Shown here piece after piece: positions 6,837 to 24,084 of a stretch of DNA of 24,817 nucleotides. The notes beneath the pieces were generated by a model. The model saw nothing but the letters and a program-made list of their open reading frames with translations. It was not told where the DNA came from and did no database searches. A program made the position numbers and the translations under genes. The number at the start of each line of letters is the position of its first letter. Within the stretch, counting starts at the first letter, position 1. The stretch is from a virus. The stretch is taken from positions 1 through 24,817 of IMG/VR virus record IMGVR_UViG_3300027971_000210; one strand, 5' to 3'.

Positions 6837-6862
6837 CTATAAGCATTGACAGGTGCTTATAG
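6837..6862 (+). promoter_or_regulatory. Inverted repeat before terminase small subunit
   Basis: CTATAAGCA (6837-6845) and TGCTTATAG (6854-6862) are perfect nine-base inverted arms around an eight-base loop, TTGACAGG. The second arm ends four bases before the ATG at 6867. The loop is the TTGACA hexamer found before many other starts. As DNA it could be an operator; as RNA, a hairpin presenting TTGACA and holding the start region. There is no T-tract, so it is not a terminator. Confidence 0.6.
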
Positions 6863-6866
6863 GCAC

Positions 6867-7433
6867 ATGAGCCAGACAGAGATCGCCAAGGCGCTGGGAA
6901 TCAGCCAGCCGGCCGTAGCACAACTGGTCAAGAAGGGCATGCCAACCGCCAGCGTGGACGCTGCCAAGCAATGGAGGTCATCCAACGTCGGACAGAAGCG
7001 AGGCATCCGAAACAGCCAGCCGGTGACGCCCATTGGGCTTTCCACTTTGCCGGACCTGCCTGACGAGCTGGCTGTCACTGACCGACTTCGTCAAATCGCG
7101 GTGCGGGACTTTGAGCAAGCTGGAACAATTCAAGAGAGGAGCGCCGCCAGCCGAACTGTCAGGGATGCGGAAGAAGCGCACGAGACCCGCAAGCGGGATC
7201 TAGTTAAATCCGAGCAGGAGGCGCAAAACCTCATGCATCGAGATCAGGTCCAGGCCGTGATGGCGGAGGAGTCGCAGAAGTTGCGCTCGCTGCTTGAGGC
7301 AATGCCAGGCTCCATCGCAATGGCGGCCAACCCTGCAGATCCAGAGCTAGCCCAAAGCGCCGTCAGCGACTACCTCGAGCAGGTCTTCTCAACCATCAGC
7401 AACACCGGACATGCCCTGCGTTTGGATTCCTGA
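6867..7433 (+). CDS. Terminase small subunit (DNA recognition)
   Basis: A 188-residue protein directly upstream of the GpA-type large terminase. The N-terminus is a helix-turn-helix (TEIAKALGISQPAVAQLVKK, residues 4-23) as in Nu1/TerS proteins that bind the packaging site. A central helical region follows (ERSAASRTVRDAEEAHETRKRDL), then a long C-terminal part (QAVMAEESQKLRSLLEAMPGSI) suited to oligomerisation and contact with the large subunit. ATG 6867 has no Shine-Dalgarno but sits 15 bases after TTGACA and just past the inverted repeat. A TTG at 6846 in the same frame is less likely because it is the motif itself. It overlaps the large subunit gene by 23 bases. Confidence 0.8.
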   Translation: MSQTEIAKALGISQPAVAQLVKKGMPTASVDAAKQWRSSNVGQKRGIRNSQPVTPIGLSTLPDLPDELAVTDRLRQIAVRDFEQAGTIQERSAASRTVRDAEEAHETRKRDLVKSEQEAQNLMHRDQVQAVMAEESQKLRSLLEAMPGSIAMAANPADPELAQSAVSDYLEQVFSTISNTGHALRLDS

Positions 7434-9171
7434 CAGCATAGAAAAGGCGAGGGCCATGTGGCAGAGCCAATGGGTCCCGCACCCAAAGCAGTCGGTGACC
7501 GAGTGGGCAGAGTCCAACATCGCTTTCTCTTCGCGCTTTACGTCGGCTCCCGGGCCATTCCGCGTCAGGAGCTACCCATATATGCGCGAATGGCTGGACG
7601 CCTTCCACCCGGCAAGCGGAGTCCGCAGCATGGCGCTACTGTGCGGCGCGCAAGTGGCGAAGAGCACGGCCATTCAAGTTGGCATGGCCTACCGAGTCTG
7701 CCGTGCTCCGGCGCCGGCACTCTGGGTGCTGGACACCCAGACCAATGCCCAGAGCTTCAGCGAATCCCGATGGCAAGTAATGATCGACGACAACGAGGTC
7801 ATGCGCCGACACCTCCCGGCCAACAAGGACAAGTTTAAGAACCTCGACCAGGCGTTTGACCGTATGCACCTCTGGTTCATCGGGTCCAACAGCCCGGGCA
7901 ACCTAGCCGGGCGCTCCATCTCGCTTCTCTGCTTGGACGAAGTAGACAAATACAAGACGAAAACTAAGCAGGAGGCCGCGGCCGTGCAGCTCGCTGTCCA
8001 GCGTGTGGCCAGCTTCCCTATGCACCTGATCGTGCTGACCAGCACGCCTACGACTCAAGAGGGATCGATATGGAAAGCCTGGCTAGAAGGCGACCAGCGC
8101 CGGTTCTGGGTGCCTTGTCCGCATTGCGGAGAGATGACCACATTGTCATGGCCGCTGATGAAATGGGACGATTCCGCCAGAGGGGATGACCGCAAATGGG
8201 ATCTGAAGCGAGTCCGAGAGACGGCCCGTCTCGAATGCCCAAAATGCTCTGGCCATATCACCGATGCGGTTAAAACCAAAATGCTGCGCGACGGGCAATG
8301 GTTGGCCGAGAATAAGAACGCCCTGCCGGGCCACAGGAGCTATCACCTGTCAGCCCTTTACTCGGTGCGTCGGTCGTTTGGCGCGTTGGCGGTCAAATTT
8401 TTACAAGACCAGCAGTCGATGATGGGCCTGCAAGACTTCGTCAACAGCATCCTCGCTGAACCGTGGGAGGATCAGATCACCGACGAGCAACGCCCATTGA
8501 CTGTCGGGGAGTATCGTCTCAACCCGCCGGCCGAGGAGGAAGAGATTCGCATGATGGCCGTTGACGTGCAGTTGACCGTTTTTTTCTACGTTGTCCGCGC
8601 TTTCAACAAGCAGGGCGAAAGCCGTCTCATCGACGAGGGCCAGCTCACGACATGGGGCGATATTGAGGCAAAAATTACCGAGCACGGCATGGACAAGCTC
8701 CGGCGCGTCGGACCGACGATGGCCAAACTTGTTGTCATTGACTCCGGCTTCCGCACCGACGAAGTGCTTGATTTCTGCGTCCGCGAAAAATGCATCCCAG
8801 GGAAAGGCGAAGACCGCCCGCAGGGATACGGCATCAAGGTCGGCCAGGTCATCCGTAAGGCAGTATCTCTCATCAAGCCATACCGCCGCGGCTGGATCAT
8901 CATGCTCTTCAGTTCTCCCAACGCGCAAGACGTGCTTGAATGGCTGCGCCGCGGCCCGACGTGGACTGTGGCCATCGATGCGTCGCCAGACTACTTGGCC
9001 CAGATCGACAGCCACCGGAAGGTGGTGCGCCGCAACCATCTGACCGGCCGCGAAAATTACATCTGGAAGCAGATCGGGCGGCGCGCCGACCACAAGCTGG
9101 ATTGCGAGCTGATGATTCTGGCGCTGGCTGAAATAGGCGGCATCATCAAAATCAAGCCACCCGAGGATTGA
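7411..9171 (+). CDS. terL: Terminase large subunit, GpA family
   Basis: A 586-residue packaging motor of the lambda GpA family. Visible in order: ATPase Walker A variant GAQVAKS at 79-85, Walker B SLLCLDEVD at 171-179 (D176, E177), coupling motif LTSTPT at 209-214, a zinc-binding pair CPHC (236-239) and CPKC (276-279) typical of GpA, then nuclease-domain acids MMAVDVQ (D385), VVIDSGF (D444) and HKLDCE near 561-566. It translocates DNA into proheads and cuts concatemers at the portal. The start could also be ATG 7456, which has an AAGGCGAGGG before it and lies just past the small-subunit stop; the longer form is listed. It matches the family in length. Confidence 0.95.
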   Translation: MPCVWIPDSIEKARAMWQSQWVPHPKQSVTEWAESNIAFSSRFTSAPGPFRVRSYPYMREWLDAFHPASGVRSMALLCGAQVAKSTAIQVGMAYRVCRAPAPALWVLDTQTNAQSFSESRWQVMIDDNEVMRRHLPANKDKFKNLDQAFDRMHLWFIGSNSPGNLAGRSISLLCLDEVDKYKTKTKQEAAAVQLAVQRVASFPMHLIVLTSTPTTQEGSIWKAWLEGDQRRFWVPCPHCGEMTTLSWPLMKWDDSARGDDRKWDLKRVRETARLECPKCSGHITDAVKTKMLRDGQWLAENKNALPGHRSYHLSALYSVRRSFGALAVKFLQDQQSMMGLQDFVNSILAEPWEDQITDEQRPLTVGEYRLNPPAEEEEIRMMAVDVQLTVFFYVVRAFNKQGESRLIDEGQLTTWGDIEAKITEHGMDKLRRVGPTMAKLVVIDSGFRTDEVLDFCVREKCIPGKGEDRPQGYGIKVGQVIRKAVSLIKPYRRGWIIMLFSSPNAQDVLEWLRRGPTWTVAIDASPDYLAQIDSHRKVVRRNHLTGRENYIWKQIGRRADHKLDCELMILALAEIGGIIKIKPPED

Positions 9172-9190
9172 TTGACACCACCGCCCACCC

Positions 9191-9514
9191 GTGGCCTCAC
9201 CTCGTTCCTTCGTCTTCAGTGTCTGGGCAGCAAATGGCAAAGATGCGGCCAAGACAATCACGGCGCTTGAAACCATAGCTTCTAACAACTTTACCGTTCA
9301 AAAAGAGGGTGGGCGCGTGCTGGTCAGCGCCTCGATGGGCGGCAAGAGCTACAGCTACACCGTGCCGCCCGACCAGACGGCCGGCACCGTGGCCGAGTTG
9401 GCCTTTGAGTCATGGAAGCAGGTCAAAGACTTGAGCGACGCCGACCTCGAGCTGTGGCTCACGCGCAAAGCCGTCAAGACAACCATAGCCGCGTTCAATT
9501 ACCCACTAGCATGA
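9191..9514 (+). CDS. Small protein in the gpW (head-tail joining) position
   Basis: A 107-residue protein between the large terminase and portal, where lambda has the 68-residue head-completion protein gpW. The stretch FTVQKEGGRVLVSASMGGKSYSYT faintly resembles the gpW beta hairpin and is preceded by a helix (AKTITALETIA), but the protein is longer and its C-terminal helical part (SDADLELWLTRKAVKTTIAAF) is not typical. Role by position only. It begins at GTG 9191, 13 bases after TTGACA (9172-9177) and without Shine-Dalgarno. The stop overlaps the portal start as ATGA. Confidence 0.55.
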   Translation: MASPRSFVFSVWAANGKDAAKTITALETIASNNFTVQKEGGRVLVSASMGGKSYSYTVPPDQTAGTVAELAFESWKQVKDLSDADLELWLTRKAVKTTIAAFNYPLA

Positions 9515-10992
9515 AACTCACTGAACGCATCAAGCTCATCGGCCGCGCATTAACTCCAAAAGCCCAAAGCTACGAGGCCGCGCGGCCAAGCATCCAACGG
9601 CGTTTTCCATACAACGCCAGCGCCACAGATGCGCACGTCGATGTGAATGCCTCTGACCGGGACAGGCTCCTGCGTCTGTCCCGATACCTCTACAACAACG
9701 TGCCCGTCATTCGCGGCATGGTGGCCGAAAAAGCCCGCTACGTCGTCGGCCACGGAATCCTGCCGCAGGCCCGCAGCGGCGACGAGGCGTGGGATGTGGC
9801 CGCCGAGGCATACTTCGATCAGTGGTCCCGCGTGGCCGACGTTCAGGGCCGCTTTACCTGGCGCGAGATGCAGCGCCTGGCATCCATCGCTATCGACCGG
9901 GACGGCGAGATTTTCTTTCAGACAGTTACGCAGGCTACCGGCTATCCGGCGCTGCGCATGATTTTGGCGCATCGCATAGGCGATAGCCGCGAGCAGATCT
10001 ATTCACCTAGCGAGCAGCGCATCATCGACGGGGTGGTGCTCAACGCCGAATTCCGCCCAATCTTCTACCGCTACCTGACCGGAACCGACATGGACATGGC
10101 CGCCACGTTCACTGATCTGCCAGCGCAACAAATGATCCACATTGGCGAGGCGTGTGCCGGAGACGAGCTGCGCTTCGTCACGCCGCTCGGGCCATCGATT
10201 AACCATCTGCGCGACCTTCAAGACGCCATCTCTTTTGAAAAAATGGCGCTCAAGATCAACAGCTACGTGGCTTTGGCGATTAAGTCCGGCAATCCACAGG
10301 GCGCCGACTTCTTTGGCGAGTCCACCGAAAGCGTTAACTCTACAGACAATTCCTCCGTCACCGTCGAAAGCCTCGGAAATACCGGAGGCGCCATCCCGCG
10401 CCTTGGCATGGGCGAGGATCTCGTCGCATGGTCTAGCGACAGGCCGAAACAGTCTTTCATGGAGTTCTGCAATGCGCTCTTGCGCGAGGTCTGCATCAAC
10501 ATGGGAGTCCCTTTTGAGTTCGTGGTCCGTCCAGACGCCGCAGGTGGAGCTGCGCTGCGCGCCGTGCTCGTCCGCGCCCAGCGAACCTTTGAGCAACGAC
10601 AGAGCCTGCTGGTGGACCGTCTCTGCTCCCGCGTATGGGCGCATGTCATCACGATAGGCATGCAGCGCGGCGACATACCGCAAAACGACAACTGGTGGAA
10701 AGTCGAGTGGCAACGCCCGGCAGCCGCGTCGGTGGACTACGGACGCGAGGCCGCGGCGAACCTCAACGACGTCCGCGCCGGCCTGCGAACTTTTGCCGAG
10801 GACTACTCAGAGCGTGGCCTTGAATGGAAAGATCAATTACGCCAGCGGGCCACGGAGGCAAAGTTCCTGCACGATTTGGCCGAAGAGTTCGATATCCCGG
10901 AAGATCGCATTGCTACTTTCAGTCCCAATCCGCAGCCAGTCCCAGACCCGGCATCGCCATCGGAACCGTTGACAGCGCAGCCAGAGCAATGA
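9511..10992 (+). CDS. Portal protein, lambda gpB family
   Basis: A 493-residue portal of the lambda family. Recognisable features are the N-terminal segment with SRYLYNNVPVIRGMVAEKARYVVGHGI, the DRDGEIFFQ strand after a helical AYFDQWS region, the IDGVVLNAEFRPIFYR turn, the conserved MIHIGEACAGDELRFVTPLGP block before the wing helices, and the NMGVPFEFV ... GAALRAVLVRAQRTFEQRQ crown region. Twelve copies form the channel at one capsid vertex where terminase docks and the tail attaches. The C-terminus is Pro/Ser-rich and runs into the protease gene with an ATGA overlap. The start at 9511 overlaps the previous stop as ATGA. Length is normal for the family. Confidence 0.92.
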   Translation: MKLTERIKLIGRALTPKAQSYEAARPSIQRRFPYNASATDAHVDVNASDRDRLLRLSRYLYNNVPVIRGMVAEKARYVVGHGILPQARSGDEAWDVAAEAYFDQWSRVADVQGRFTWREMQRLASIAIDRDGEIFFQTVTQATGYPALRMILAHRIGDSREQIYSPSEQRIIDGVVLNAEFRPIFYRYLTGTDMDMAATFTDLPAQQMIHIGEACAGDELRFVTPLGPSINHLRDLQDAISFEKMALKINSYVALAIKSGNPQGADFFGESTESVNSTDNSSVTVESLGNTGGAIPRLGMGEDLVAWSSDRPKQSFMEFCNALLREVCINMGVPFEFVVRPDAAGGAALRAVLVRAQRTFEQRQSLLVDRLCSRVWAHVITIGMQRGDIPQNDNWWKVEWQRPAAASVDYGREAAANLNDVRAGLRTFAEDYSERGLEWKDQLRQRATEAKFLHDLAEEFDIPEDRIATFSPNPQPVPDPASPSEPLTAQPEQ

Positions 10993-12077
10993 AGCCCGCC
11001 CGCTGGTATGCAATTTCAAAAGCCGAGAACAGCGCCTCCGGCGGCAGCGTCGAAATTTCTATTTATGACGAGATCGGCTTTGGCGGCGTCAGCGCCAAAG
11101 ACTTTCTCGCTGAGGTCCAAAAGTTCAGCGGCCAGCACATCGACCTTCGCATCAACAGCGTCGGAGGATCTGTCACCGAAGGCGCTGCAATCTACAACGC
11201 ATTACGCAGGCACCAAGGCGGCTTAACCGTTCACGTTGATGGGCTTGCGGCCAGCATGGCCTCGGTCATTGCTATGGCCGGAGATAAAACTCTAGTGGCC
11301 GACAACGCGCTGCTCATGATCCACAACCCTTGGAGCATCAGCATGGGAGACGCCGAGACGATGCGCAAAGAGGCTGCCGTCTTGGATAAAATCAAGAGCA
11401 CGTTGGTCAACGCCTACACACGCAAGACCGGCATGGACGCAGCCACCATTGGTCAAATGATGGACGCCGAGACGTGGCTCGACTCGACCGAGGCCGTGGC
11501 GATGGGATTTGCCGACGGCATTGAGGACGGCATCGAGGCCGCAGCCTCTCTCACCCGCGAGTCAGCCCGCGCGCGATTTGACAAGCTCACCAATCTTATG
11601 GCACGTAAACCCTCAAAATTGGCCAAGGCCGATGAGGCCGTCATCGTCGATGACGAGCCGACAACCGAAACGGCTCCCGAGCCTACCGTTGACACGCCTT
11701 CCGAGGATGTGAACGCAGAACTCACCGCGAAAGTCGAAGCCCTCCAGGCCGACGTTGACGCTAAGAACGCTTTGCTCGCTCAAGCCAGCGAAGACACGGC
11801 CAAGGAAATTGAATCCTTGAAGCTCGAGGTGGCACGCCTTTCTTCCGAAGTCGCTCAAAAGAACGACGAGATCGCCTCACTGAATTCCGAAAAGAAGTCG
11901 GCCGGCGAACAGGCCGCCCAGATCGTGGCGAGCATCGGCCTCAACATCCCGACGGCCGCCGCGCCCGTCGAACCCGAGCTGAGCGCCGCCCAACATTTCG
12001 CCACCCTCGAGGGGTCGGCCCAAGTAAATTTTTACCGCGCCAACAAAGCCGCAATCCTCAAAACGTTCTACTCCTAA
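10989..12077 (+). CDS. ClpP-like prohead protease fused to scaffold-like tail
   Basis: A 362-residue protein. Residues 18-190 are a ClpP/S49-like head-maturation protease: RINSVGGSVTEGAAIYN, the GLAASMAS nucleophile motif (Ser89), MIHNPW (His112) and DAETWLDSTEAVAMGFAD. Residues about 205-362 are a charged, acidic linker followed by a coiled coil (AELTAKVEALQADVDAKNALL and on), as in scaffolding proteins, like lambda gpC with Nu3 as its C-terminal part. The protease trims the scaffold and capsid proteins inside the prohead. The start at 10989 overlaps the portal stop as ATGA and has TTGACA 14 bases upstream, with no Shine-Dalgarno. No separate delta domain is visible in the capsid protein, so a separate or nested scaffold is needed. 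Confidence 0.88.
   Translation: MKPARWYAISKAENSASGGSVEISIYDEIGFGGVSAKDFLAEVQKFSGQHIDLRINSVGGSVTEGAAIYNALRRHQGGLTVHVDGLAASMASVIAMAGDKTLVADNALLMIHNPWSISMGDAETMRKEAAVLDKIKSTLVNAYTRKTGMDAATIGQMMDAETWLDSTEAVAMGFADGIEDGIEAAASLTRESARARFDKLTNLMARKPSKLAKADEAVIVDDEPTTETAPEPTVDTPSEDVNAELTAKVEALQADVDAKNALLAQASEDTAKEIESLKLEVARLSSEVAQKNDEIASLNSEKKSAGEQAAQIVASIGLNIPTAAAPVEPELSAAQHFATLEGSAQVNFYRANKAAILKTFYS
11598..12077 (+). CDS. Probable nested scaffold protein from internal start
   Basis: An in-frame ATG at 11598 inside the protease gene would give a 159-residue protein (starting MARKPSKLAK) holding only the acidic linker and coiled coil. That is the arrangement of lambda Nu3 inside gene C. The support is TTGACA at 11578-11583, exactly 14 bases before this ATG, the same spacing seen before the protease's own start and other late genes. 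The cut falls at the natural boundary after the protease domain. Scaffold function and actual use of this start are inference. Confidence 0.5.
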   Translation: MARKPSKLAKADEAVIVDDEPTTETAPEPTVDTPSEDVNAELTAKVEALQADVDAKNALLAQASEDTAKEIESLKLEVARLSSEVAQKNDEIASLNSEKKSAGEQAAQIVASIGLNIPTAAAPVEPELSAAQHFATLEGSAQVNFYRANKAAILKTFYS

Positions 12078-12083
12078 AATTTT

Positions 12084-12980: not shown

Positions 12981-12999
12981 TCCTCCTCACAACAAACAC

Positions 13000-13029
13000 A
13001 GAAGCCCCCGCCCGCGCGGGGGTTTTCTG
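13000..13029 (+). terminator. Intrinsic terminator after capsid gene
   Basis: The stem CCCCGC (13007-13012) pairs with GCGGGG (13017-13022) around a CCGC loop and is followed by TTTT; the flanking CAGAA and TTCTG can extend the stem. It lies 20 bases after the capsid stop and before the glycosyltransferase cassette. It probably limits expression of downstream genes relative to capsid, or marks the border of an inserted cassette. Confidence 0.85.
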
Positions 13030-13064
13030 CGTTTGGGTGGGTTGACAAAGTCGCACCCGACGAG

Positions 13065-14894
13065 ATGGAGAAACTTAGCCCGCGGGAGCAGATCTCGCTT
13101 TGCGTTATTGTTGGAAATGAACCCAAGCGCTTAGACCGGGCGCTCACCCTGTTTGGTCCATCCGTCAGTGAGATGGTTGTCGTCCACGCCACTGGCATGG
13201 AGGCCAAGAGCGTCAAGGTTGCCGAGGTATGCCAGAAGCACGGGGCCACCTATGATGTGTACAACAACGAACCGCAGCACGAGTGGCCGCATATCGACAA
13301 CTTCGCCGCCGCCAGGCAAAAGTCTTTTGATTTGGCCACCAAAGAGTGGGCGCTCTGGATCGACGCCGACGACACGCCCGGGCCAAACTTTGCCGAGGCG
13401 CTCCACGAGCTTCTGGACAAATTTCCCGAGATGGACGGCTTCTGCCTCTACCACGACGTGGCCGGCCGCGGCATCGCCCACAACTTGCGCGAACGGTTGC
13501 TCCGCAGAACCAAATTCGAATGGCGCAACCGCATCCACGAGAATTGCTACGCCATCGACGAGAAGAGCGTCAAGCTAGCCAAGTGCGACCAGCCGGTGGT
13601 GCTGCACTTACCAGACGACGAGCCGAAGCAGGGACCGGACCGTAACCTACGAATCCTCGAGTCAATCCCTGAGAGTGAAAGAACCACGTCGGACATCTAT
13701 CATCTCGGCGGAGAATACCAGACGGCCGGCAGGAAGGAGGAGGCCATCGCGCTCTTCCGTGAAGCCATCAAGCGCCCAGACTGCGCCGCCACCGAACGAT
13801 ACGAGCTGTGCCTCAACATCGCCGAGCTGGCCCGCCCTCCCATCATTGAGACAGAAAGCCACGAATACCGAGTGATGTGCTCGGCCCTGCACCACGGCTT
13901 TAGCATCCAGCCTTGGCGCAGGGAGGCGCTGGCGCTGCTTGGGGCACTGCACCTAGACATCGGCGATGCCGAGCGCTCTGAAGCCTACCTGAGGACCATG
14001 CTGGCCGTGCCAACACCAAGCACGCTGCCTTGGACCCACCGGGCATCTCTATACGGATGGGCCGGCGAGAGCCTATGGACGCAATTTCTGCGGCTATCCG
14101 GCAAGATAGAGCAGGCCGACGCCATCGAGGCTGCCAGGCTCAAGAACCACAAATATACCATCTCCATCATCCACCCGACTCGCGGCCGCCCAGAGCAAGC
14201 TGCCGCAGTCCGCAAGCAGTGGCTGGAGAACGCGGCCAACGCCGAGCGCATCGAGCACATCTTTGGCCTTGAGCTGGACAACCCTGATTTGGAGATCCTT
14301 GGCCGATTCCGTCACGCCACCGTTCCGGCCGGACTCATGGATAGCCCGGGAGGAAACTGCGTGAAGGCTTACAACGCCGCAGCGCGCGCGGCGAAAGGCG
14401 ACATAATCATCGCATGCGCTGACGACTTCGCCGCACCTCCGCTCCATTGGGACAACATCGTCGAGTCCGAGCTGCGGCAATATGTGGACACCTATCAGCC
14501 GGCCATGCTCCAGATCCGAGACGGCTACCGCACGGATGACCTTGTTGTCACGCCATGCGTCACCAGAAAAACGCTCAAGGTGCTTGGCTACGGGGGCGGC
14601 ATCTACTCCGACGACTATGTCTCCATGTTCTGCGACACGGAGCTAACGGCAAGGGCGTCCGCTGGCGGATGGCTGGTGCCATCGTCGCTGGTTATCAAAC
14701 ACGAACACCCTATCCACAGGCCAGACCTGCCGGTGCACCCGACCACAGCGAGGTCCAACCGCATGCAGAACTACGACGACGGATTCGCCACCTTCAAGCG
14801 CCGCAACCCGAAATACTGCCAGGACAACCCGAAGTTCGAGCAGGAATTTTTGCAACTCAGAGCCGCCGCCACCGATGCCAAAAATAAACTTTGA
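13065..14894 (+). CDS. Bifunctional glycosyltransferase: GT2-TPR-GT2
   Basis: A 609-residue protein with two GT-A fold modules. Module 1 (about 10-190) has ISLCVIVGNEP, a WIDADD sugar-nucleotide/metal motif at 98-103 and WRNRIHE at 153-159, typical of GT2 enzymes with a following TPR region. Residues about 205-345 are TPR-like helices (IYHLGGEYQTAGRKEEAIALFREAI). Module 2 (about 364-560) begins TISIIHPTRGRPEQ and has GDIIIACADDF with the acidic pair at 453-454 and DTELTARA near 524. It would transfer sugars from nucleotide donors to an acceptor in the cytoplasm; the capsid or a tail protein is the obvious candidate. TTGACA lies 17 bases before ATG 13065. It overlaps the next glycosyltransferase gene by 20 bases. 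Confidence 0.85.
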   Translation: MEKLSPREQISLCVIVGNEPKRLDRALTLFGPSVSEMVVVHATGMEAKSVKVAEVCQKHGATYDVYNNEPQHEWPHIDNFAAARQKSFDLATKEWALWIDADDTPGPNFAEALHELLDKFPEMDGFCLYHDVAGRGIAHNLRERLLRRTKFEWRNRIHENCYAIDEKSVKLAKCDQPVVLHLPDDEPKQGPDRNLRILESIPESERTTSDIYHLGGEYQTAGRKEEAIALFREAIKRPDCAATERYELCLNIAELARPPIIETESHEYRVMCSALHHGFSIQPWRREALALLGALHLDIGDAERSEAYLRTMLAVPTPSTLPWTHRASLYGWAGESLWTQFLRLSGKIEQADAIEAARLKNHKYTISIIHPTRGRPEQAAAVRKQWLENAANAERIEHIFGLELDNPDLEILGRFRHATVPAGLMDSPGGNCVKAYNAAARAAKGDIIIACADDFAAPPLHWDNIVESELRQYVDTYQPAMLQIRDGYRTDDLVVTPCVTRKTLKVLGYGGGIYSDDYVSMFCDTELTARASAGGWLVPSSLVIKHEHPIHRPDLPVHPTTARSNRMQNYDDGFATFKRRNPKYCQDNPKFEQEFLQLRAAATDAKNKL

Positions 14895-15450
14895 GCCACT
14901 GCTGTCCGTGCTAATCGCCACGGTCAGCGAGCGATCCGAGCAGGCCAACGCGCTGTTCAACCGCCTTGAGATGCAGGCCGATCCGCATCCCGTCGAGATC
15001 CTCATGCTCCGAGACAACAGGCGCTCTGGTATTGGCGAGGCGAGAAACAGGCTCCTGCGGGCATCCTCGGGCAAATACGTCACATTCTGCGACGACGACG
15101 ACGACTACGCCGACGACTATTTTGCCAGCATCCTCCCGAGCCTCTCGCAGCAGGCCGACGTAATTACCTACAACCAGCGGGCCGACGTGGACGGCGAGAT
15201 CGGTGAGGTGCATTGCAGTCTCGAGCACGACAACTACCCCTTCCGCCCTGGGCAAGTCACGCAGCGCAAGCCGTGGTTTTGGTGCGCCTGGGAGCGCGAA
15301 CTGGCCATGTCGCACGCTTTTCCCAAAGTGACTGAGCGCGAAGATGTGCTTTGGCTTCAGCACCTCTGGGCCGACGCTGAAACGGAGCTACATATTCCAA
15401 AGATCCTTCACCACTACACGTTCCGGAAGGAGAAGAGCACGCTGCAATGA
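14875..15450 (+). CDS. GT2-family glycosyltransferase
   Basis: A 191-residue compact GT-A enzyme. LLSVLIATVSERSEQANALFNRL starts the Rossmann-like donor site, GEARNRLLRASSGKYVTFCDDDDDY at about 54-78 carries the metal-binding acidic motif, and WFWCAWERELA ... TEREDVLWLQ supplies the acceptor-side and catalytic acid positions. It is shorter than typical stand-alone GT2 proteins (often 250-350 residues), so it has only the catalytic core, without a membrane segment. It overlaps the gene before by 20 bases and the next by four, so the three form one translational unit. The sugar and acceptor cannot be told from sequence. Confidence 0.85.
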   Translation: MPKINFEPLLSVLIATVSERSEQANALFNRLEMQADPHPVEILMLRDNRRSGIGEARNRLLRASSGKYVTFCDDDDDYADDYFASILPSLSQQADVITYNQRADVDGEIGEVHCSLEHDNYPFRPGQVTQRKPWFWCAWERELAMSHAFPKVTEREDVLWLQHLWADAETELHIPKILHHYTFRKEKSTLQ

Positions 15451-16367
15451 GAACCGCAGACATTGTCTATTTTGCAGGAGAGCCGGTGGCCTTCGGCGCC
15501 GGGCTTTGCCAGCAACTCCAGCGGCATGGGCTTTGCCATACGGCCATAGCAATGCCGCACGATTACAGCGCCGCCATCGAAAAGCTCAGAGCAAGCCGCG
15601 CCGATTGCGTCGTCTTCCTGTCTCCTCATGCCGTTGCTGATTTCATAACCACCAAGCACGCCGAGCTGGTCTCCTTGGACAAGCCGCTGCTCGGATACGT
15701 CTCGGAGTGGATCGCCGGGAACGACCTGTTCCCCGCCGGCCGAGACTTCCACTCGCAGCACAACTGGCTGCACTACTACTCGGCGACTCAGATGAGCGAC
15801 GTGCAATGGTTTCGTGGGCTTGGCATGAGCTGCGACTTTGCACAACCAATGTTCGCTAACGAGCTATTCAGCCTCCCTCCAAAAGACCATCCACGCAAAA
15901 AGAAGCTGGCTTACATAGGACATAATAACCCGTGGAAAACCGAGCGCCTCAGAGTCTTGCAAGCCCTCGAGAGCCAAAGCCTTGTTGATGCTTTTGGGCC
16001 ACCGACGACCATTGACGGGGCTTCCGAGGTGGCTGCTGTTTTTCAAAGCTACGAAGGCGTGCTATGCCCTCAAGCTCATGGAAGAGCGCACAGCATCAGA
16101 TGCTACGAAGCCGCCGCCTGCGGGGCGCTAATCGTCGAGTGCCAGCAATTGGATGACGGAAACGAACTTTTCATCGATGGGCAGCACCGGATCTCATTTG
16201 CCGTTGGGACTGAAGCCGAAGACATTCGTCAATTTGTCCGCGGACTTGACTATGAGAAACTTCGCCACATTGCCAAGGCTGGAGCCGAGATGGCGCACGA
16301 GGAATTTTGCGCCCAAGTCGGATTCAACAGGTTTCTTTGCCAGGCTGACAAGGCGCTGACAGGGTGA
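15447..16367 (+). CDS. GT-B fold glycosyltransferase (CgeB/Glyco_trans_1_2-like)
   Basis: A 306-residue protein. The C-terminal half has the signature of the Glyco_trans_1_2/CgeB-like group: GVLCPQAHGRAHSIRCYEAAACGALIVECQ followed by FIDGQHRISF and a helix-rich DIRQFVRGL ... HIAKAGAEMAHEEF end. The N-terminal half is a degenerate GT-B acceptor domain with a MSDVQWFRGLG segment and KKKLAYIGHNNPWKTERL at the domain junction. It is related to enzymes that decorate phage, spore or flagellar surface proteins. ATG 15447 has GGAAGGAG upstream and overlaps the previous stop. It is followed, with a four-base overlap, by a head-tail connector gene, so the cassette sits inside the structural operon. Confidence 0.8.
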   Translation: MRTADIVYFAGEPVAFGAGLCQQLQRHGLCHTAIAMPHDYSAAIEKLRASRADCVVFLSPHAVADFITTKHAELVSLDKPLLGYVSEWIAGNDLFPAGRDFHSQHNWLHYYSATQMSDVQWFRGLGMSCDFAQPMFANELFSLPPKDHPRKKKLAYIGHNNPWKTERLRVLQALESQSLVDAFGPPTTIDGASEVAAVFQSYEGVLCPQAHGRAHSIRCYEAAACGALIVECQQLDDGNELFIDGQHRISFAVGTEAEDIRQFVRGLDYEKLRHIAKAGAEMAHEEFCAQVGFNRFLCQADKALTG

Positions 16368-16669: not shown

Positions 16670-16670
16670 C

Positions 16671-17150: not shown

Positions 17151-17174
17151 TGGTTGACATCGCATCCCTATATT

Positions 17175-17522: not shown

Positions 17523-17556
17523 TCTGCGCTTTTTAGCGCCCAGAGATCGACAGATT

Positions 17557-17958
17557 ATGAGTGAAGCATATTACGCCACAACCGACACCAAGGTCGCATC
17601 GTGCCTAGCCACAGTTGGCGTCCAGTTGCGCCAGCAAGACCCAATCAGCCGAGTCGTCCAGCGCGGGCGAGAGACATGGCACTACTGGTTTGACCTAAAT
17701 GGAGCCGCCGGCCTTTCGACCAACGATATCGTCACGGCCGTGCTTGAGGGGCAGGAGGCCACCGAGGCCCTGCGGGACAAGTTGCCGGACCTTCCGGGCG
17801 CTCGGGCATCGCTCTTTAATCGTGAAGCTCTGCTTGATCTAGGCAACAATCGTTGTCGACGTCTCGTGCTGGTGAATCTTCCCAATGGTGCAGTCATGCT
17901 GGCCGACGAGAAACTGTCTCCCGAGGTCAAACGCCAAGTCGCCCAGCTCGTGCTTTGA
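17557..17958 (+). CDS. Hypothetical tail-region protein
   Basis: A 133-residue protein that I do not recognise. The first half has a strand-like region (RETWHYWFDLNG), the second is helical (TNDIVTAVLEGQEATEALRDKLPDL, then VKRQVAQLVL). It sits between the tube protein and the tail assembly chaperone. The start ATG 17557 has TCGACA upstream but at only four bases, not the spacing seen elsewhere. Its stop TGA is inside the TTGACA that precedes the chaperone gene. Confidence 0.6.
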   Translation: MSEAYYATTDTKVASCLATVGVQLRQQDPISRVVQRGRETWHYWFDLNGAAGLSTNDIVTAVLEGQEATEALRDKLPDLPGARASLFNREALLDLGNNRCRRLVLVNLPNGAVMLADEKLSPEVKRQVAQLVL

Positions 17959-17976
17959 CAGCACCCGCGGGTCGAT

Positions 17977-18378: not shown

Positions 18379-18413
18379 CGCGCCCGACGTGGCAGTTGGC
18401 GCTCGCGGCGCGC
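18366..18413 (+). promoter_or_regulatory. Programmed -1 ribosomal frameshift signal
   Basis: The heptamer C CCA AAA (18366-18372) is a textbook X-XXY-YYZ slippery site in the correct zero frame. Five bases later a seven-base stem begins: GCGCGCC (18378-18384) with GGCGCGC (18407-18413). Slipping back by one base leads into an open frame ending at 18596. This is the layout of the lambda G/GT system (lambda uses GGGAAAG). Confidence 0.85.
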
Positions 18414-18596
18414 GCATCGAAATACGGAGTCACGCTGTACCAATCGCTGTGGGAGGTTCCGCTTGCCTGTCTGAACCAATACATGGTCTACGACGAGCTG
18501 CACGCTGGCCGCCAGCCGAGGTGGCTTGAAATGGGCGAGGGAGACATTCAATCGCTGGACGACCTCATGGCCGGCGCGATGACAAGCTCAGGCTAG
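18372..18596 (+). CDS. Frameshift extension of the tail assembly chaperone (gpT part)
   Basis: After a -1 slip on CCCAAAA the ribosome continues with AGC CTA GCG, adding 74 residues (starting SLARPTWQLALAARASKYG) and ending MAGAMTSSG at TGA/TAG 18594-18596. The fusion is about 206 residues, like lambda gpGT. The added part contains LWEVPLACLNQYMVYDELH, a helical motif that would contact the tail tube or tape measure. The frame is open further back to 18288 with no good ribosome binding site, so independent translation is unlikely. Frame and site are seen; frameshift frequency is unknown. Confidence 0.8.
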   Translation, partial: SLARPTWQLALAARASKYGVTLYQSLWEVPLACLNQYMVYDELHAGRQPRWLEMGEGDIQSLDDLMAGAMTSSG

Positions 18597-18598
18597 TT

Positions 18599-19357
18599 AT
18601 GGGCGAGGTCATCGTGGAGGCCGACAACCGGGCAATGCGCCGGTTCCATGAGGCCCTGTCCGAATTGGGCAACGTGTCTGGCAAGGAGTTCAAGACGGTT
18701 TTAAAAAGTGAAGTCGGCGCAGTGCTGAACGGAGCAATCACACGCACGAAAAAAGCGAGCGTGAAAAGCATCAAGGGCAACCACGACAGGCAGCCCGGAG
18801 CGGCTTATGGGTTTTCTTACCCAGGGCCGCAGAGCAAAAGCGGGAAGCAATATACTCCAAGCCAAACAGCAAAGGCCCACGCTCGAGCAGCTCGCGCCAG
18901 AAACAGAAAGGGTGGCAAAGCTATTTATTACCTTTCTGGAAGCAGCCAGCCACATCGATACCCAGATGCGCTTTGGCAAAAAATTACCCAGAGCAGGGAA
19001 AAATCATTGGAAAATCACCAGAAGGGGCGGGGGCTGGCCGCGTCGATGTGGGTCAAAATAGCAACTGGACTTGGCATCGACGTAAAGACTCCAAACTACG
19101 TCCGTAACGCCACACACTGGAAGCGTGGCGACATGTCGGACATGGTCAGAACGCATGAGGCCGGAGCAGGAAAAAGCTACGAGCTGGGCTTTGCCAACAG
19201 CCTTACGCATACAAACAACTGGGCAGGAGCGGGCGTTGCCTTTCGAGCCTCGCTCAACGCCCGGGCAACTTATTTCGGCCAAGCCGTCAAGCTGGCGGCC
19301 AAGGGGAAGATCAAGGCTATCATGGACCGCTACCCCGGGCTGGCCAGCGTCTCTTGA
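18599..19357 (+). CDS. Hypothetical tail/neck-region protein
   Basis: A 252-residue basic protein between the chaperone pair and the tape measure. An N-terminal helix (MRRFHEALSELGNVSGKEFKTVLKSEVG) leads to a Lys/Arg-rich region (TRTKKASVKSIKGNHDR, AHARAARARNRKGGK), followed by a C-terminal part with a helix ending LAAKGKIKAIMDRYPG. It could be distantly like HK97 gp10-type structural proteins, but I cannot assign it. ATG 18599 is preceded by ATGACA at exactly 14 bases (18579-18584), one mismatch from the repeated TTGACA signal. Its TGA stop lies inside the TTGACA before the tape measure. Confidence 0.55.
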   Translation: MGEVIVEADNRAMRRFHEALSELGNVSGKEFKTVLKSEVGAVLNGAITRTKKASVKSIKGNHDRQPGAAYGFSYPGPQSKSGKQYTPSQTAKAHARAARARNRKGGKAIYYLSGSSQPHRYPDALWQKITQSREKSLENHQKGRGLAASMWVKIATGLGIDVKTPNYVRNATHWKRGDMSDMVRTHEAGAGKSYELGFANSLTHTNNWAGAGVAFRASLNARATYFGQAVKLAAKGKIKAIMDRYPGLASVS

Positions 19358-19375
19358 CAATAGAGGAAGGTCAAA

Positions 19376-21154
19376 ATGGCTGACGGAGAAATTCTATTTA
19401 AGGCAGGCATGGACACGGCCGGATTTGAATCCGGCTCACGGCGCATCAAGCAGTCTGCCGACGCAACAGCAGATTCCGTAAAGAGCGCATTCGCAAGCAT
19501 TGGAAACATTATTGCCGGAGGCGCCTTTGCCAACGGACTAGAAAACCTGCTGAGCAAAATGGACAGGGTGCAGACCATCGCTAAACAATTTGGAACAAGC
19601 GCAGAGGCGGTGCAACGAATTGGCGGCGCAGCAGATCAGGTTGGCACCAGTTTGGAGAACGTGGAAAGCGCCATGCGCAAGGCTGGCGTCGCGGCGTCCA
19701 AGGCCGCCAACGATGGCAGCGAGGCATGGAAAAATATAGGGATCGATGCCGCCGCTTTTGCGGCCGGCGATCTAGAGGCTAGGGTCAAAATGGTTGGCGC
19801 GGCGATGGAAGCGATTGGCGGCGACCAGCGCAAGATGGCCGAACTCTTCGACGTGATCGGCACCAAGGCCGCCGGCATCAACTTTGCCGAGCTTGTCATC
19901 GAGATGCAGAACGTCAACGTGGCCAGCAACGAGCTGGTCAAGCAGCTTGCAGACGCCAACGATGAGCTAGACAAAATGAAGAACAACGCCACCGTTTTCG
20001 GGGCGAACCTACTGAAGGCGCTTGTGATTGACCCTGCGGAGCGTATTGGAAGCATTCTGTCTGGCCAAGGACCGGCCACCAACGCCGAGGCTGATCAAAT
20101 GGCCTTGAGGGAAAGGGCTAGAGCTAATCTTGAAAGAGAGCAAATGTTGCGCCCAGAAGGCGATTACCAATCCGTAATAGGGCCAGAAGGAATTGCAATG
20201 CCGGTGGCAAATGACGCTGAGGTTGAAAACCTTAGACTGATAGCGGCAGAGATGGAACGCATCCGCAAGTTAGAATCAGAGATAACAACCCAAACAGTTG
20301 CCACCGCAGACGCCGTTGAGACCGTTGCAGACAAAACAAAAGCCAGGGCGGAAGCTGCCGAGCATATCCGCGAATTGGCGCTGGAGATCAAGGAGGCAGA
20401 GAACGCAGGCAACGACGTTCTGGCAGAAAAACTGCGTTGGCAGAAGGACTACGAAACAGCGCTGGCATCCAATCTTGATAGCGAAGACGCCTATGGCATG
20501 GCTGTGCGAGAGGCAAACGCCAACCTTGAGGCGAGGAACAGGCTTCTTGCAGAGCAGCTTCAACGCACCCACGACAATGTAGAGGCTGAACTCAAGTATG
20601 CTGAAACGATGGCCTACGGAACCGCAGAAGAAAAAGCGCGCGCCGAGTGGATGAAGATCTACAACGAGGCCAAATCCAAGCCTGGCGTCACAGAGGACCA
20701 AGCGCAAAGGGCAGCGAACGTCGGGACGTACAAGCCTGAGAAAGACAAAAGCTCCGAAGGTGGCGGAGGAGGTGGCGGAGGACGCGGTGGGAGCGATGAA
20801 TACGAATGGAACGACACTATCTCCCAAGACGAAGCTGAAATGCGCGCCCGCGGTCGCACAAGAAGGGCCAGAGATCGCGCGGATGAACTGGAATCACGCG
20901 GCTACTACGATGCGGCCGCCAGAATCCGCAAGCGCGCCGATGAGAAGTCAAAAGAGATCATCGAGGACGCAAGGCTAAAAGACCAACAAAAAGGCATGGC
21001 TGAAGAGGGATCATCCGAAGATCCAAGCCAGCCCGGCGGAAGCGGCAAGGGGAAGGGCGGTGGTGGAGGCGGGAAAGATTCTTTGCTGACCAAGGTAACT
21101 GAAATCCACAAGTGGATGACAGACAACCTTCCGTCAAACGCACTGACTTCATAA
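19376..21154 (+). CDS. Tail tape measure protein
   Basis: A 592-residue, almost wholly helical protein with the typical tape-measure start (ILFKAGMDTAGFESGSRRIKQSADATADSVKSAF) and a long coiled-coil middle (RLIAAEMERIRKLESEI, ELALEIKEAENAGNDV, further heptads to about 455). Gly-rich spacers follow (about residues 462-475 and 560-573). No strong membrane helix and no lytic transglycosylase or peptidase domain is evident. It sets tail length and probably passes through the tube into the cell. It is short for a tape measure, pointing to a tail shorter than lambda's. TTGACA lies 16 bases before ATG 19376 and a GAGGAAGG Shine-Dalgarno sits in between. The stop is directly followed by the next gene. 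Confidence 0.85.
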   Translation: MADGEILFKAGMDTAGFESGSRRIKQSADATADSVKSAFASIGNIIAGGAFANGLENLLSKMDRVQTIAKQFGTSAEAVQRIGGAADQVGTSLENVESAMRKAGVAASKAANDGSEAWKNIGIDAAAFAAGDLEARVKMVGAAMEAIGGDQRKMAELFDVIGTKAAGINFAELVIEMQNVNVASNELVKQLADANDELDKMKNNATVFGANLLKALVIDPAERIGSILSGQGPATNAEADQMALRERARANLEREQMLRPEGDYQSVIGPEGIAMPVANDAEVENLRLIAAEMERIRKLESEITTQTVATADAVETVADKTKARAEAAEHIRELALEIKEAENAGNDVLAEKLRWQKDYETALASNLDSEDAYGMAVREANANLEARNRLLAEQLQRTHDNVEAELKYAETMAYGTAEEKARAEWMKIYNEAKSKPGVTEDQAQRAANVGTYKPEKDKSSEGGGGGGGGRGGSDEYEWNDTISQDEAEMRARGRTRRARDRADELESRGYYDAAARIRKRADEKSKEIIEDARLKDQQKGMAEEGSSEDPSQPGGSGKGKGGGGGGKDSLLTKVTEIHKWMTDNLPSNALTS

Positions 21155-21155
21155 T

Positions 21156-22034
21156 ATGGCATCTCTCCTAATCCAGTCTCCGGCATTCCAAGCCTCCGGA
21201 ATTGCCATGAACTCGCAGTCTTTCACGGAAGACATTAGCGGCCTAGTGCGGGCTTCGCTCACATTCACCACCACTGCCTCGAGGTCAGACGAAATATCGC
21301 AGTTGTTCTACGTCGACGCGCCGCCGCCGATATGGCCCGATTCCATCGACAGATTTTCATTGCAGTCCCAGCAGCTGTACATGATCAGCCGGACGGTGGA
21401 GAAGTTTGCGGGCCTAGTCACCATCAAGGCGCAATATGCCGGCGCGCTGAGCAATGCTATTTCCAATCCGCGCGTCTCCATCGAGCGGCAAAGCATAAAT
21501 TTCAATCTTCAAATTTATGTGTCCCAGCAGGTGACGCAAACCCAATGGAAAATCATTAATGGCAAATGGTATCTTGTGCCGATCACGATAACCTCATTCA
21601 ATGTAGATACAGGAACATCTTCTTACCAATCATCAATAGTTCCGGCTTATGACTACTATTCCGGCAACGCAACTATCGGAGTAAAGAGAGTTTCTTTTGC
21701 AAGCGTTGGAGAAGACACGTTTTCAATTACGCCGCCAGCAATAAGCAGTCTTATCTTGGGAGCAACATCAACGACCACGCAACTTCAGGATTTGTCCTAC
21801 CAATGGAATCCTTACCCGACTGGTGGAGAAAACCCGTTTCCTCCTAATTCTGGATATGGAGAAGGACAAAGCGGCCCATCTGGTCAATTTGTTGGTGGGC
21901 CGTATTACGAAAGATCGCGAACGGCGGTTTCTCTTCTTGCAGAATTTGGAAAATACGCTCTGGCACAGGATAGCGGCATAGAGTTTATCACGCCAACGGT
22001 CTTTGTTAAAACAGCGCGTTTCTGGCTGGTTTAA
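21156..22034 (+). CDS. Hypothetical distal tail / baseplate protein
   Basis: A 292-residue beta-rich protein directly after the tape measure, where distal tail proteins usually begin. The first half is GC-rich with segments such as IDRFSLQSQQLYMISRTVEK. From about residue 125 the DNA is markedly more AT-rich and the protein richer in Ser, Thr, Tyr and Asn, with a Gly/Pro-rich loop (NPFPPNSGYGEGQSGPSGQ). No enzymatic motif. It is probably structural, perhaps hub or receptor-facing. ATG 21156 follows the TAA of the tape measure and has no clear ribosome binding site. Confidence 0.55.
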   Translation: MASLLIQSPAFQASGIAMNSQSFTEDISGLVRASLTFTTTASRSDEISQLFYVDAPPPIWPDSIDRFSLQSQQLYMISRTVEKFAGLVTIKAQYAGALSNAISNPRVSIERQSINFNLQIYVSQQVTQTQWKIINGKWYLVPITITSFNVDTGTSSYQSSIVPAYDYYSGNATIGVKRVSFASVGEDTFSITPPAISSLILGATSTTTQLQDLSYQWNPYPTGGENPFPPNSGYGEGQSGPSGQFVGGPYYERSRTAVSLLAEFGKYALAQDSGIEFITPTVFVKTARFWLV

Positions 22035-22038
22035 TCTT

Positions 22039-22326
22039 ATGGCGCTCGCAGATCTACATTACTTCAAAGACGATCTGACCAAGAAGCCAACCGGCAATTC
22101 TGGCGCGCCTCCGCGTGGTATTAGCGCAAAGGACTTGGACGGTAACTTTCTAAAGGTGCAGGTCATCGACGATCCAGCCGCTACAAGCAAGGTCTATTCT
22201 GTTGAATACACAGATCAAGGCACGGTTCTAAAGGTGCTACCGACAATCAACGCGTCCGGCACTTATGTTTTAGGCACGGTTGATGGAGTGCTGCAATGGA
22301 TAGCAACGCAGGACTGCGACGCCTAG
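22039..22326 (+). CDS. Hypothetical small tail-region protein
   Basis: A 95-residue protein with a charged start (LHYFKDDLTKKPTG) and a beta-rich remainder (VYSVEYTDQGTVLKVLPTINASGTYVLGTVDGVLQWIATQDCDA). The final segment looks like fibre or decoration modules. No family assigned. ATG 22039 follows the previous stop by four bases; a TTG at 22003 in the same frame overlaps the previous gene and is less likely. The next gene starts four bases after its stop, so the group is one transcription unit. Confidence 0.55.
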   Translation: MALADLHYFKDDLTKKPTGNSGAPPRGISAKDLDGNFLKVQVIDDPAATSKVYSVEYTDQGTVLKVLPTINASGTYVLGTVDGVLQWIATQDCDA

Positions 22327-22329
22327 CAT

Positions 22330-22842
22330 ATGGCAACCATTGCTTTAAGCGGAACCGGGACCGACAAGAAAGTTGTTCTTAAGACGGTTGGTGGTGTGCA
22401 AAAAGTTAGTTGCAGTTGCTGCGGCTGCGGTAGTGTGCCAAACGAGATTAGCGTTGTATTCTCTGGAATAAACGTGTGTACGAATGCGCCTTCGTTCCCT
22501 GGAACACTTTCATCAGCAGTGCTAACTAGAGACGAGAGTGGCAACTTTCTTTACGATGATGGGACACACAGAATAGGCGCGATATGCTGGACTCCAAACA
22601 TAATTTCTCAGTTTTACCCAGAATGGATACCAGATATACCGGTAAATATTGACCCAAATGGAAGCTCTCCTATTTTTTCAATATACTATTACGCAGAGGA
22701 CGGGACAGGAATAATCTTTGCATCCGTATTTACAGGACAATTTGCGGCTAACGGTGGTAGTGTAAGCAATATTCTCACGGCATCGGATTGCGATCCAACT
22801 ACTGCCATTCGATATGGAGGAACTGCGACAATTTCATGGTAA
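22330..22842 (+). CDS. Cys-cluster beta-rich tail/adhesin-like protein
   Basis: A 170-residue beta-rich protein with a striking CSCCGCG cluster at residues 28-34, further cysteines at 50, 86 and about 154, and many aromatic and Asn/Gly/Ser residues. The cluster could bind metal or form disulphides. Codon use is AT-rich (many ATA and AGA codons), unlike the genes on either side. I read it as a late-acquired receptor-binding or adhesin-like tail protein, but no domain is firmly recognised. ATG 22330 has no Shine-Dalgarno. Its end overlaps the next gene by seven bases. Confidence 0.55.
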   Translation: MATIALSGTGTDKKVVLKTVGGVQKVSCSCCGCGSVPNEISVVFSGINVCTNAPSFPGTLSSAVLTRDESGNFLYDDGTHRIGAICWTPNIISQFYPEWIPDIPVNIDPNGSSPIFSIYYYAEDGTGIIFASVFTGQFAANGGSVSNILTASDCDPTTAIRYGGTATISW

Positions 22843-23099
22843 TTGCCTTTGCCGATTCCGCTCATTGCCACAGCCGCGCGCACTGCCGCGCCTGCCGCTC
22901 CGATCCGGCATGGAGAGCCGCTGTCGGCGCACCGGACGAGTGTCCGCATGGAGTGCGCGGCCTCGGCGATATCGTCGAGCTGCTCGCCAAGCCCATCGCC
23001 AAGGCCCTGGGCCTGCCCTGTCTTGATAAGCACAACCGCCTGCGGCCCGAATCGCCATGCGCCAAGCGTAGGAACGCTCTGAACAGAGCAACCCTTTGA
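22836..23099 (+). CDS. Cys/His-rich small protein, putative zinc binding
   Basis: An 87-residue protein with an N-terminal Cys/His run (HCHSRAHCRACRSDP), ECPHG around residue 38, and a C-terminus of the form GLGDIVELLAKPIAKALGLPCLD ... CAKRRNALNRATL. The pairing of CRxCR, CPHG and a final C-x-KRR-x-ALN reminds me of small proteins near phage tail/lysis genes whose function is unknown. Structural zinc binding is likely from the residues. ATG 22836 overlaps the previous gene by seven bases, with a GGAGG 15 bases upstream. The TGA stop is inside the TTGACA preceding the next gene. Confidence 0.55.
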   Translation: MVIAFADSAHCHSRAHCRACRSDPAWRAAVGAPDECPHGVRGLGDIVELLAKPIAKALGLPCLDKHNRLRPESPCAKRRNALNRATL

Positions 23100-23115
23100 C
23101 ACCGCTCCGCAGCAA

Positions 23116-24084
23116 ATGGAAGCCCGCAAGCTGTATATTGACACCCAAAGCCGGCGGTTTGTCACCAGTGACAGTTCCCAAGCTCCGGCCGCGCGGCCCA
23201 CGTTTTACGCCAACGACGTAGAGCCATTTGAGCTATATTTTCTGACGCCTACTGGCTCCGGCTCCTACTACTACTCAGATTACTCGGCAAACACCATCAA
23301 GCTGGCCGTCGGCGTGACCAGCCAGCTCGTGTCTCAGACAACCTGGTCAGCATTGTCGACTGCCATTACAACGACAATAACCTCGCTTACAGCAGGAAGC
23401 AGCACGGCAAACGAGGTGCAAAAGGTTAGCTTTTCCAAGCAACCCAACCTTGGGACATGGGCCATCCAGTTCCCATCCCGGGCGATCACAGTGTCCAGCG
23501 TCTCTTCAAGCCTTTTCACAGCGGCAACCCACGGGCTTTATGATGCACAGCCCATCACGCTATCAGGCTTCACCATCAGCGGCGGCACCTTTTCAAACGC
23601 CGACTACTACGTCGCCAGCTCAACGCTTGGCACATTCTACATCAGCACCATCTCTGGAGGAACCGCTACAGTAGGCGCACAAGTTACCAGCGGCGGCGGC
23701 ACCGCAACGCTCAAGACGATCACAACCAAGGCGCTTCCTTACAACGCAACGGCGCAAGACGTTCAAACGGCACTCATCGACGCCGGATTCAGCGGTACAG
23801 GCAACCCGAACATTACTGTGAGCGGCTCGATGGCCGAGGGTTTCACGATTTGCTACGGAGGCAGATCGTCCAACATAAATTTCGACAACGTGTCCGTCGT
23901 TAACTCGTCCATCTCTTCAGCGGTTGGCGTATCGGCCAACGTGTCTTTCACCACCACCGCCTTCTTGGCCTTGGTGGCAGCGGGAACGACTAGCGCAACC
24001 GTAGAAGTCGAGGTATCCGGCAGCGGACAAAAACAGACCACCGTCATGTCGTGCAACATAGCCGACGACATCATCGACCCATGA
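23116..24084 (+). CDS. Tail fibre/baseplate-type protein with inserted HGL module
   Basis: A 322-residue beta-rich protein. The start (ARKLYIDTQSRRFV ... FYANDVEPFELYFLTPTG ... IKLAVG, about residues 3-66) resembles the N-terminal attachment domain of baseplate/fibre proteins. A module at about 125-200 has the HGLYDAQPITL ... YYVASSTLGTFYIST pattern common in phage fibres. It interrupts a second repeat type: NEVQKVSF (99-106) on one side and ALPYNATAQDVQTALIDAGF on the other. The C-terminal strands (VSANVSFTTTAFLALVAAG) end the protein. TTGACA lies 14 bases before ATG 23116 with no Shine-Dalgarno. Probably structural, contributing to host contact. Confidence 0.6.
   Translation: MEARKLYIDTQSRRFVTSDSSQAPAARPTFYANDVEPFELYFLTPTGSGSYYYSDYSANTIKLAVGVTSQLVSQTTWSALSTAITTTITSLTAGSSTANEVQKVSFSKQPNLGTWAIQFPSRAITVSSVSSSLFTAATHGLYDAQPITLSGFTISGGTFSNADYYVASSTLGTFYISTISGGTATVGAQVTSGGGTATLKTITTKALPYNATAQDVQTALIDAGFSGTGNPNITVSGSMAEGFTICYGGRSSNINFDNVSVVNSSISSAVGVSANVSFTTTAFLALVAAGTTSATVEVEVSGSGQKQTTVMSCNIADDIIDP

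Follow-up and report, generated by a model that had tools for sequence, protein, structure and literature searches.

TTGACA 13-18 nt before late-gene start codons in a group of uncultured phages, and a helix-turn-helix protein probably linked to it

Results

TTGACA copies in the window

The DNA studied here, positions 1 to 24,817 of the viral IMG/VR record IMGVR_UViG_3300027971_000210 (24,817 nt, referred to as the window), carries the hexamer TTGACA in front of many late genes and, at the border between early and late genes, a gene for a helix-turn-helix (HTH) protein of 185 aa (5535..6092, + strand), which we propose as the reader of the hexamer. An exact count over the whole window gave 12 copies of TTGACA on the + strand and none on the − strand. 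For 11 of these 12 copies, an ATG or GTG was found 13-18 nt downstream (background 0.158 per position; binomial P = 1.6e-8). At this spacing, the hexamer begins 19-24 nt 5′ of the start codon. The number of copies as such is ordinary, as 10.4 copies are expected on both strands after dinucleotide shuffling of the window. Thus, the strand and position of TTGACA are unusual, not its total. An earlier note, made from the letters of this DNA, had counted about twelve exact copies on the + strand, most of them at gene starts, and on recount this count and every exact coordinate given there were correct. The excess over chance that it had seen in the copy number was not found.

All features described below are on the + strand. 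The first copy (5515..5520) is located 14 nt before ATG 5535 of the HTH gene, inside a longer frame starting at GTG 5511, and the same layout is found in relatives. The second (6846..6851) precedes by 15 nt ATG 6867 of another HTH protein (6867..7433), a candidate for the small terminase subunit; phrog_57, terminase small subunit, was found among the proteins of the relatives. The gene of the large terminase subunit (7411..9171), the start of which overlaps the preceding gene, has no motif, and directly behind it TTGACA 9172..9177 lies 13 nt before GTG 9191. In the 3′ end of the portal gene, a copy at 10969..10974 is found 14 nt before ATG 10989 of a ClpP-like head protease. Two further copies lie within the protease gene, at 11578..11583 and at 11689..11694, each 14 nt before an in-frame internal start (ATG 11598 and GTG 11709, respectively). 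The copy at 11689 had been omitted from the earlier note; the GTG is an ATG in relatives (MNAEL...) and is likely the start of the scaffold protein. Both internal starts with their TTGACA are kept in relatives. Phage lambda nests its scaffold Nu3 inside C, which is the same place as that of these internal starts.

Behind the major capsid gene, a terminator hairpin CCCCCGCCCGCGCGGGGG followed by a T-run (13005..13022) ends 19 nt before the next TTGACA (13042..13047), which is 17 nt away from ATG 13065 of a glycosyltransferase gene. In several lineages a strong terminator likewise ends 3-19 nt 5′ of the hexamer of the gene following the capsid gene. Glycosyltransferase-like genes occupy 13065-15450 of the window, right after capsid gene and terminator, and are kept in the window family. 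Further downstream, TTGACA is found at 17154..17159 (15 nt before ATG 17175), at 17955..17960 (16 nt before ATG 17977), at 19354..19359 (16 nt before ATG 19376 of the tape measure gene) and at 23096..23101 (14 nt before ATG 23116); the copies at 17955 and 19354 share the TGA of the preceding gene. The remaining copy, at 23138, lies within a gene and has no ATG at 13-18 nt. One-mismatch variants are CTGACA at 16345..16350, 13 nt before GTG 16364, and a weak, single ATGACA at 18579..18584, 14 nt before ATG 18599. CTGACA is the commonest of such variants, with 17 of the 31 late starts that have one mismatch.

Conservation in relatives and diverged phages

Enrichment at this spacing in related phages had been set beforehand as a test of the motif. 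In 60 relatives from IMG/VR, collected with a terminase scan and mostly of about 80% identity, the gene strand has 335 copies of TTGACA and the opposite strand 16, and the distance to ATG peaks at 13-18 nt, with almost none at 8-12 or 18-23. When the window is included, 344 of 347 gene-strand copies have an ATG, GTG or TTG at 13-18 nt. The same peak was observed in diverged phages, with large terminase subunits of 32-54% identity and a G+C content of 0.41-0.62 (169 versus 31 copies; 123 starts at 13-17 nt). Once redundancy was removed, 133 sites remained, in which conservation is limited to the hexamer and the start codon and the spacer is free. Neither a −10 box nor a Shine-Dalgarno sequence or other partner is conserved across these 133 sites, which bears out the earlier observation that the spacers share no −10 box. 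No rise in A/T was found in the spacer or the first codons, and no −10 hexamer about 17 bp downstream. Hairpins in the spacer are slightly more stable than shuffled ones, an effect too weak to serve as a basis for anything.

In ten long relatives and the window, the exact motif is present at 13-18 nt in 77 of 330 late-block starts and in none of the 217 starts outside this block (early genes), a contrast that mainly describes clustering in the structural-gene block, as the late block was bounded by the outermost motif sites. The block corresponds to the region that begins with the HTH gene and the small terminase and runs through head and tail genes to lysis. The late-gene specificity put forward previously is thus supported. 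Starts that overlap the previous gene by at least 5 nt or follow it by 0-8 nt rarely have the exact motif (3/108), and those with a gap of 16-30 nt mostly do (33/49).

The hexamer does not resemble a Shine-Dalgarno sequence in its position (13-18 nt) or in its pairing, as the mean anti-Shine-Dalgarno duplex of late starts with the motif is −2.5 kcal/mol. This value is −2.3 kcal/mol for late starts without the motif and −7.4 kcal/mol for overlapping early genes. Since weak pairing is common to late starts with and without the motif, the motif is not simply a replacement for the Shine-Dalgarno sequence. It had been claimed that late motif genes lack a Shine-Dalgarno sequence, in contrast to early genes with GGAGG; the weak pairing of late genes was confirmed, its tie to the motif was not.

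Avoidance of the hexamer on both strands

To obtain expected counts, synonymous codons were shuffled within genes of the window family (the window, G004-G006 and G011-G013), G007 and G008. The antisense hexamer TGTCAA was seen twice in coding sequence versus 36.9 expected, an 18-fold depletion (rank 22 of 4072 hexamers), while its single-base neighbours have near-normal counts. Away from starts, the sense hexamer is also depleted (7 versus 45 and 2 versus 19.7 expected). The depletion on both strands is alike in early and late genes. The same avoidance is little or absent in Verrucomicrobia phage P8625 and Akkermansia phage Moulinsart, and about twofold in the host. As antisense copies never occur in late mRNA and are nevertheless avoided, a signal in the mRNA is disfavoured and a directional DNA element fits. 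The hexamer therefore most likely acts in DNA.

In the window family, GTAC-containing hexamers are almost absent from coding sequence (GTACCG, 0 versus 38 expected), a pattern that would fit avoidance of a restriction enzyme with this target.

The HTH protein

When the gene content of motif-bearing and motif-lacking relatives was compared, a single family fitted the distribution of the motif, that of the protein encoded at 5535-6092. This HTH family is present in all seven close relatives, in G008, in G009 and in five prophages, and absent from all seven relatives lacking the motif. Structural genes were ruled out as the linked factor because motif-lacking relatives carry them too. A viral scan with an HTH sub-alignment revealed that another large clade of viral contigs carries the HTH gene; TTGACA has 214 copies versus 30 there. 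When the HTH protein alone was used to search 388 genomes, it matched at 20 places in 13 of them, and most of these loci have start-linked TTGACA biased to the gene strand. Five of the genomes (G153, G098, G274, G144 and G138) have no terminase match at E 1e-30 and include Mu-like prophages. In the Mu-like prophages (G153), whose head genes are unrelated, TTGACA is found before the Mu-like protease and before an in-frame internal start within it. A late-gene-specific site together with a phage-encoded factor where the site occurs, as expected for a phage late regulon, was found, with exceptions in G010, G231, G341:C9 and G177:C34.

Two starts are present in the HTH gene: one is GTG 5511, with GGAGG in front and overlapping the upstream stop, the other is ATG 5535, which has a TTGACA of its own. 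This double-start layout is kept in several relatives. At three prophage loci (L194 9639-9658, L246 2332 and L253 269) one or two TTGACA lie about 33 nt or more before the start of the HTH gene, where autoregulation is possible.

The HTH is the only recognisable part of the protein. Similarity to Sigma70_r4 was detected in 9 of 19 members (E 0.004-0.05, below the Pfam cut-off), the sigma-factor phage family phrog_351 was matched in 8 of 19 (3.9e-5), and there is weak similarity to KorA as well. Sigma region 2, which binds core polymerase and recognises the −10 element, gave no match in Pfam, PHROGs or PDB searches, and the phage records searched contained no match to the protein. In the AlphaFold model (pLDDT 74) the protein is all-helical, with mostly unmatched helices and only weak HTH matches, the top ones among these structural matches being KorA/ArdK repressors. 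From its distribution and its HTH, this protein is probably what reads TTGACA.

Isolates, prophages and host genes

The closest isolates by capsid and terminase include P8625 and Moulinsart, and in both the 13-18 nt spacing is absent. In P8625 (L065), TTGACA lies exactly 30 nt before the ATG of four genes (5412, 10736, 15558 and 22406), and at three of these sites an inverted repeat of the kind GTATCC...GGATAC overlaps the would-be −10. These sites look like a leaderless promoter/operator set; with a spacing of 30, they were ruled out as the same system.

Using the terminase, related phages were found in 30 of the 388 genomes, which are all from Verrucomicrobiota. Prophages with the motif are present in G141 (a single contig of 3.75 Mb) and on contigs of G229, G341, G198 and G321, and several of the motif phages have an integrase or a chromosomal location. 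The earlier note had proposed to look for the motif in the host genome; it was not found at host gene starts, with 0 of 192 well-separated starts in G141. Across the whole G141 genome, there are 79 copies at N13-18 and 73 at the control spacing N20-25. The same control in 26 genomes, mostly of Verrucomicrobiota, gave about equal counts at both spacings, which rules out host-wide use. An apparent enrichment in 289 Verrucomicrobiota genomes against a reversed-pattern control was an artefact of that control. Host genes of G141 hardly use Shine-Dalgarno sequences, so their lack in late genes is ordinary for such a host.

In two genomes (G242 and G177), there are several HTH gene copies or several related prophages of the motif type. 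One motif-bearing phage contig (L144, G001:C158) was binned in a metagenome-assembled genome of Betaproteobacteria, which reflects either misbinning or a wider host range; the sole HTH gene copy of that assembly lies on this contig.

Discussion

TTGACA is a real, phage-specific regulatory element of late genes, which most likely acts in DNA and probably has a reader dedicated to it. We lean, with slightly more confidence than doubt, towards a phage HTH factor that reads TTGACA as a directional late promoter element, with transcripts starting at or just before the start codon. The HTH protein would be made from the early operon and bind the hexamers, by which many late genes are marked singly; once bound, it would make RNA polymerase initiate in the 13-18 bp that follow. 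The resulting mRNAs would be leaderless or have a very short leader, and genes that abut or overlap the upstream stop would be carried in the same transcript. The binding to the hexamer, the activation and the position of the transcription start are inferred here. The terminator just before the hexamer behind the capsid gene fits a new transcription start at this place, although read-through is possible. The start codon is too near for a normal −35 box; if the element initiates transcription, initiation must lie within the 13-18 nt and would give a leaderless or very short-leadered transcript.

Several observations weigh against this promoter reading. Its weakest point is the lack of an A/T-rich stretch in the 13-18 nt where initiation would have to occur; spacers can be GC-rich or contain runs of C, which is unusual for DNA that must melt. 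Moreover, with a factor placed like sigma region 4, transcription would begin some 15 nt into the gene, and a non-standard geometry has to be assumed. The sigma similarity of the HTH protein is weak, with the Sigma70_r4 match below cut-off, and Foldseek returned no match to its model below E 0.001. The link between motif and protein has exceptions in both directions, as G010, a fragment of 25.9 kb, has the motif and no HTH gene, and at three HTH matches (G231, G341:C9 and G177:C34) the strand tested shows no clear set of motifs. Finally, antisense depletion in prophages is weaker than in the window family (6 versus about 21 expected).

The earlier note had left open a translation-start signal or a late regulator site. 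For the former, UUGACA in the mRNA would be recognised by the ribosome or an RNA-binding factor and take the place of the late Shine-Dalgarno sequence, which would account for the tight distance to the start codon, the free spacer, the missing −10 and the copies at internal and overlapping starts. We regard this as unlikely: avoidance is equally strong for sense copies and for antisense copies, which are never present in late mRNA, late starts without the motif equally lack a Shine-Dalgarno sequence, the genes of a prophage-bearing host do not use the signal at their starts or at this spacing genome-wide, and the co-occurring protein has a fold of DNA-binding type. The avoidance on both strands and the HTH protein favour the regulator site. 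Such a site could also serve a repressor, if the HTH protein silenced late genes in the lysogen or acted as a roadblock instead of an activator. The KorA/ArdK repressors among the fold matches and the phages with an integrase or chromosomal location would agree with this; still, repression explains neither the constant spacing of 13-18 nt before each start codon nor the sites within coding sequence of the same operon and right after a terminator, and we consider it somewhat less probable even than a translation signal.

That the copies are ordinary sigma-70 −35 boxes is very improbable, despite the identical hexamer and the P8625 sites, where 30 nt leave room for N17 and a −10-like hexamer. 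In the window and its relatives there is no −10 at the proper distance, such spacing is absent at host genes, and transcription begun some 30 nt past the hexamer, as by sigma-70, would start within reading frames with conserved N-termini. Chance or common ancestry of a few gene starts can practically be dismissed: some sites are indeed orthologous between relatives, yet the 133 non-redundant sites have unrelated flanks, the motif recurs in unrelated Mu-like prophages, and there are almost no copies away from starts.

More tentatively, and with doubt prevailing, the promoter reading may be extended to a single-element promoter, in which a 6-bp site and a small phage HTH factor, without a −10, would produce leaderless late transcripts gene by gene, including the nested scaffold starts, in many unrelated phages of Verrucomicrobiota. 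If true, these phages would switch on their late genes in a simple way, from promoters of unusual geometry. The findings give a sequence rule that marks late-gene starts, nested scaffold genes included, in uncultured phages of a phylum with only few isolates in the phage collection searched. An otherwise unknown phage protein now has a candidate target of 6 bp that can be tested, and the motif may help to assign such phages to Verrucomicrobiota hosts.

A literature search found no known TTGACA start signal. The most similar published case that we found is that of the Start-Associated Sequences (SAS) of Cluster K mycobacteriophages, 13 bp containing AGGAG (GGGATAGGAGCCC), located 3-7 bp before starts of non-structural genes, which look like an extended ribosome site (PMC3203893). 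Both are short asymmetric repeats found in one orientation before many phage starts, across gene families, and absent from the host. SAS are a different sequence, at another distance and before genes of another class. In the present phages the site is a bare 6 bp, is located 13-18 bp from the start codons of structural and late genes, is avoided almost everywhere else on both strands, and has an HTH gene linked to it; for SAS, no such protein is named (PMC3203893).

Late promoters of T4 are recognised by gp55 through TATAAATA, an AT-rich element of the −10 type. Short sites in front of many late genes are common to both systems, as is, if the HTH protein reads the hexamer, a phage-encoded factor that recognises them; in the present phages the hexamer is −35-like, its position is neither that of a −35 nor that of a −10, and an AT-rich partner is missing. 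Region 4 of sigma-70 reads the −35 element TTGACA. The hexamer is identical and the HTH is weakly similar to region 4, and the differences are that no −10 is present, that no region 2 was recognised, and that the start codon is too close. Leaderless promoters, as reported for Deinococcus-Thermus (PMC12340547) and mycobacteria (PMC4633059), also have a promoter element close to the start codon. Their element is a −10 box adjoining the start codon, whereas in the phages it is another hexamer, 13-18 nt away.

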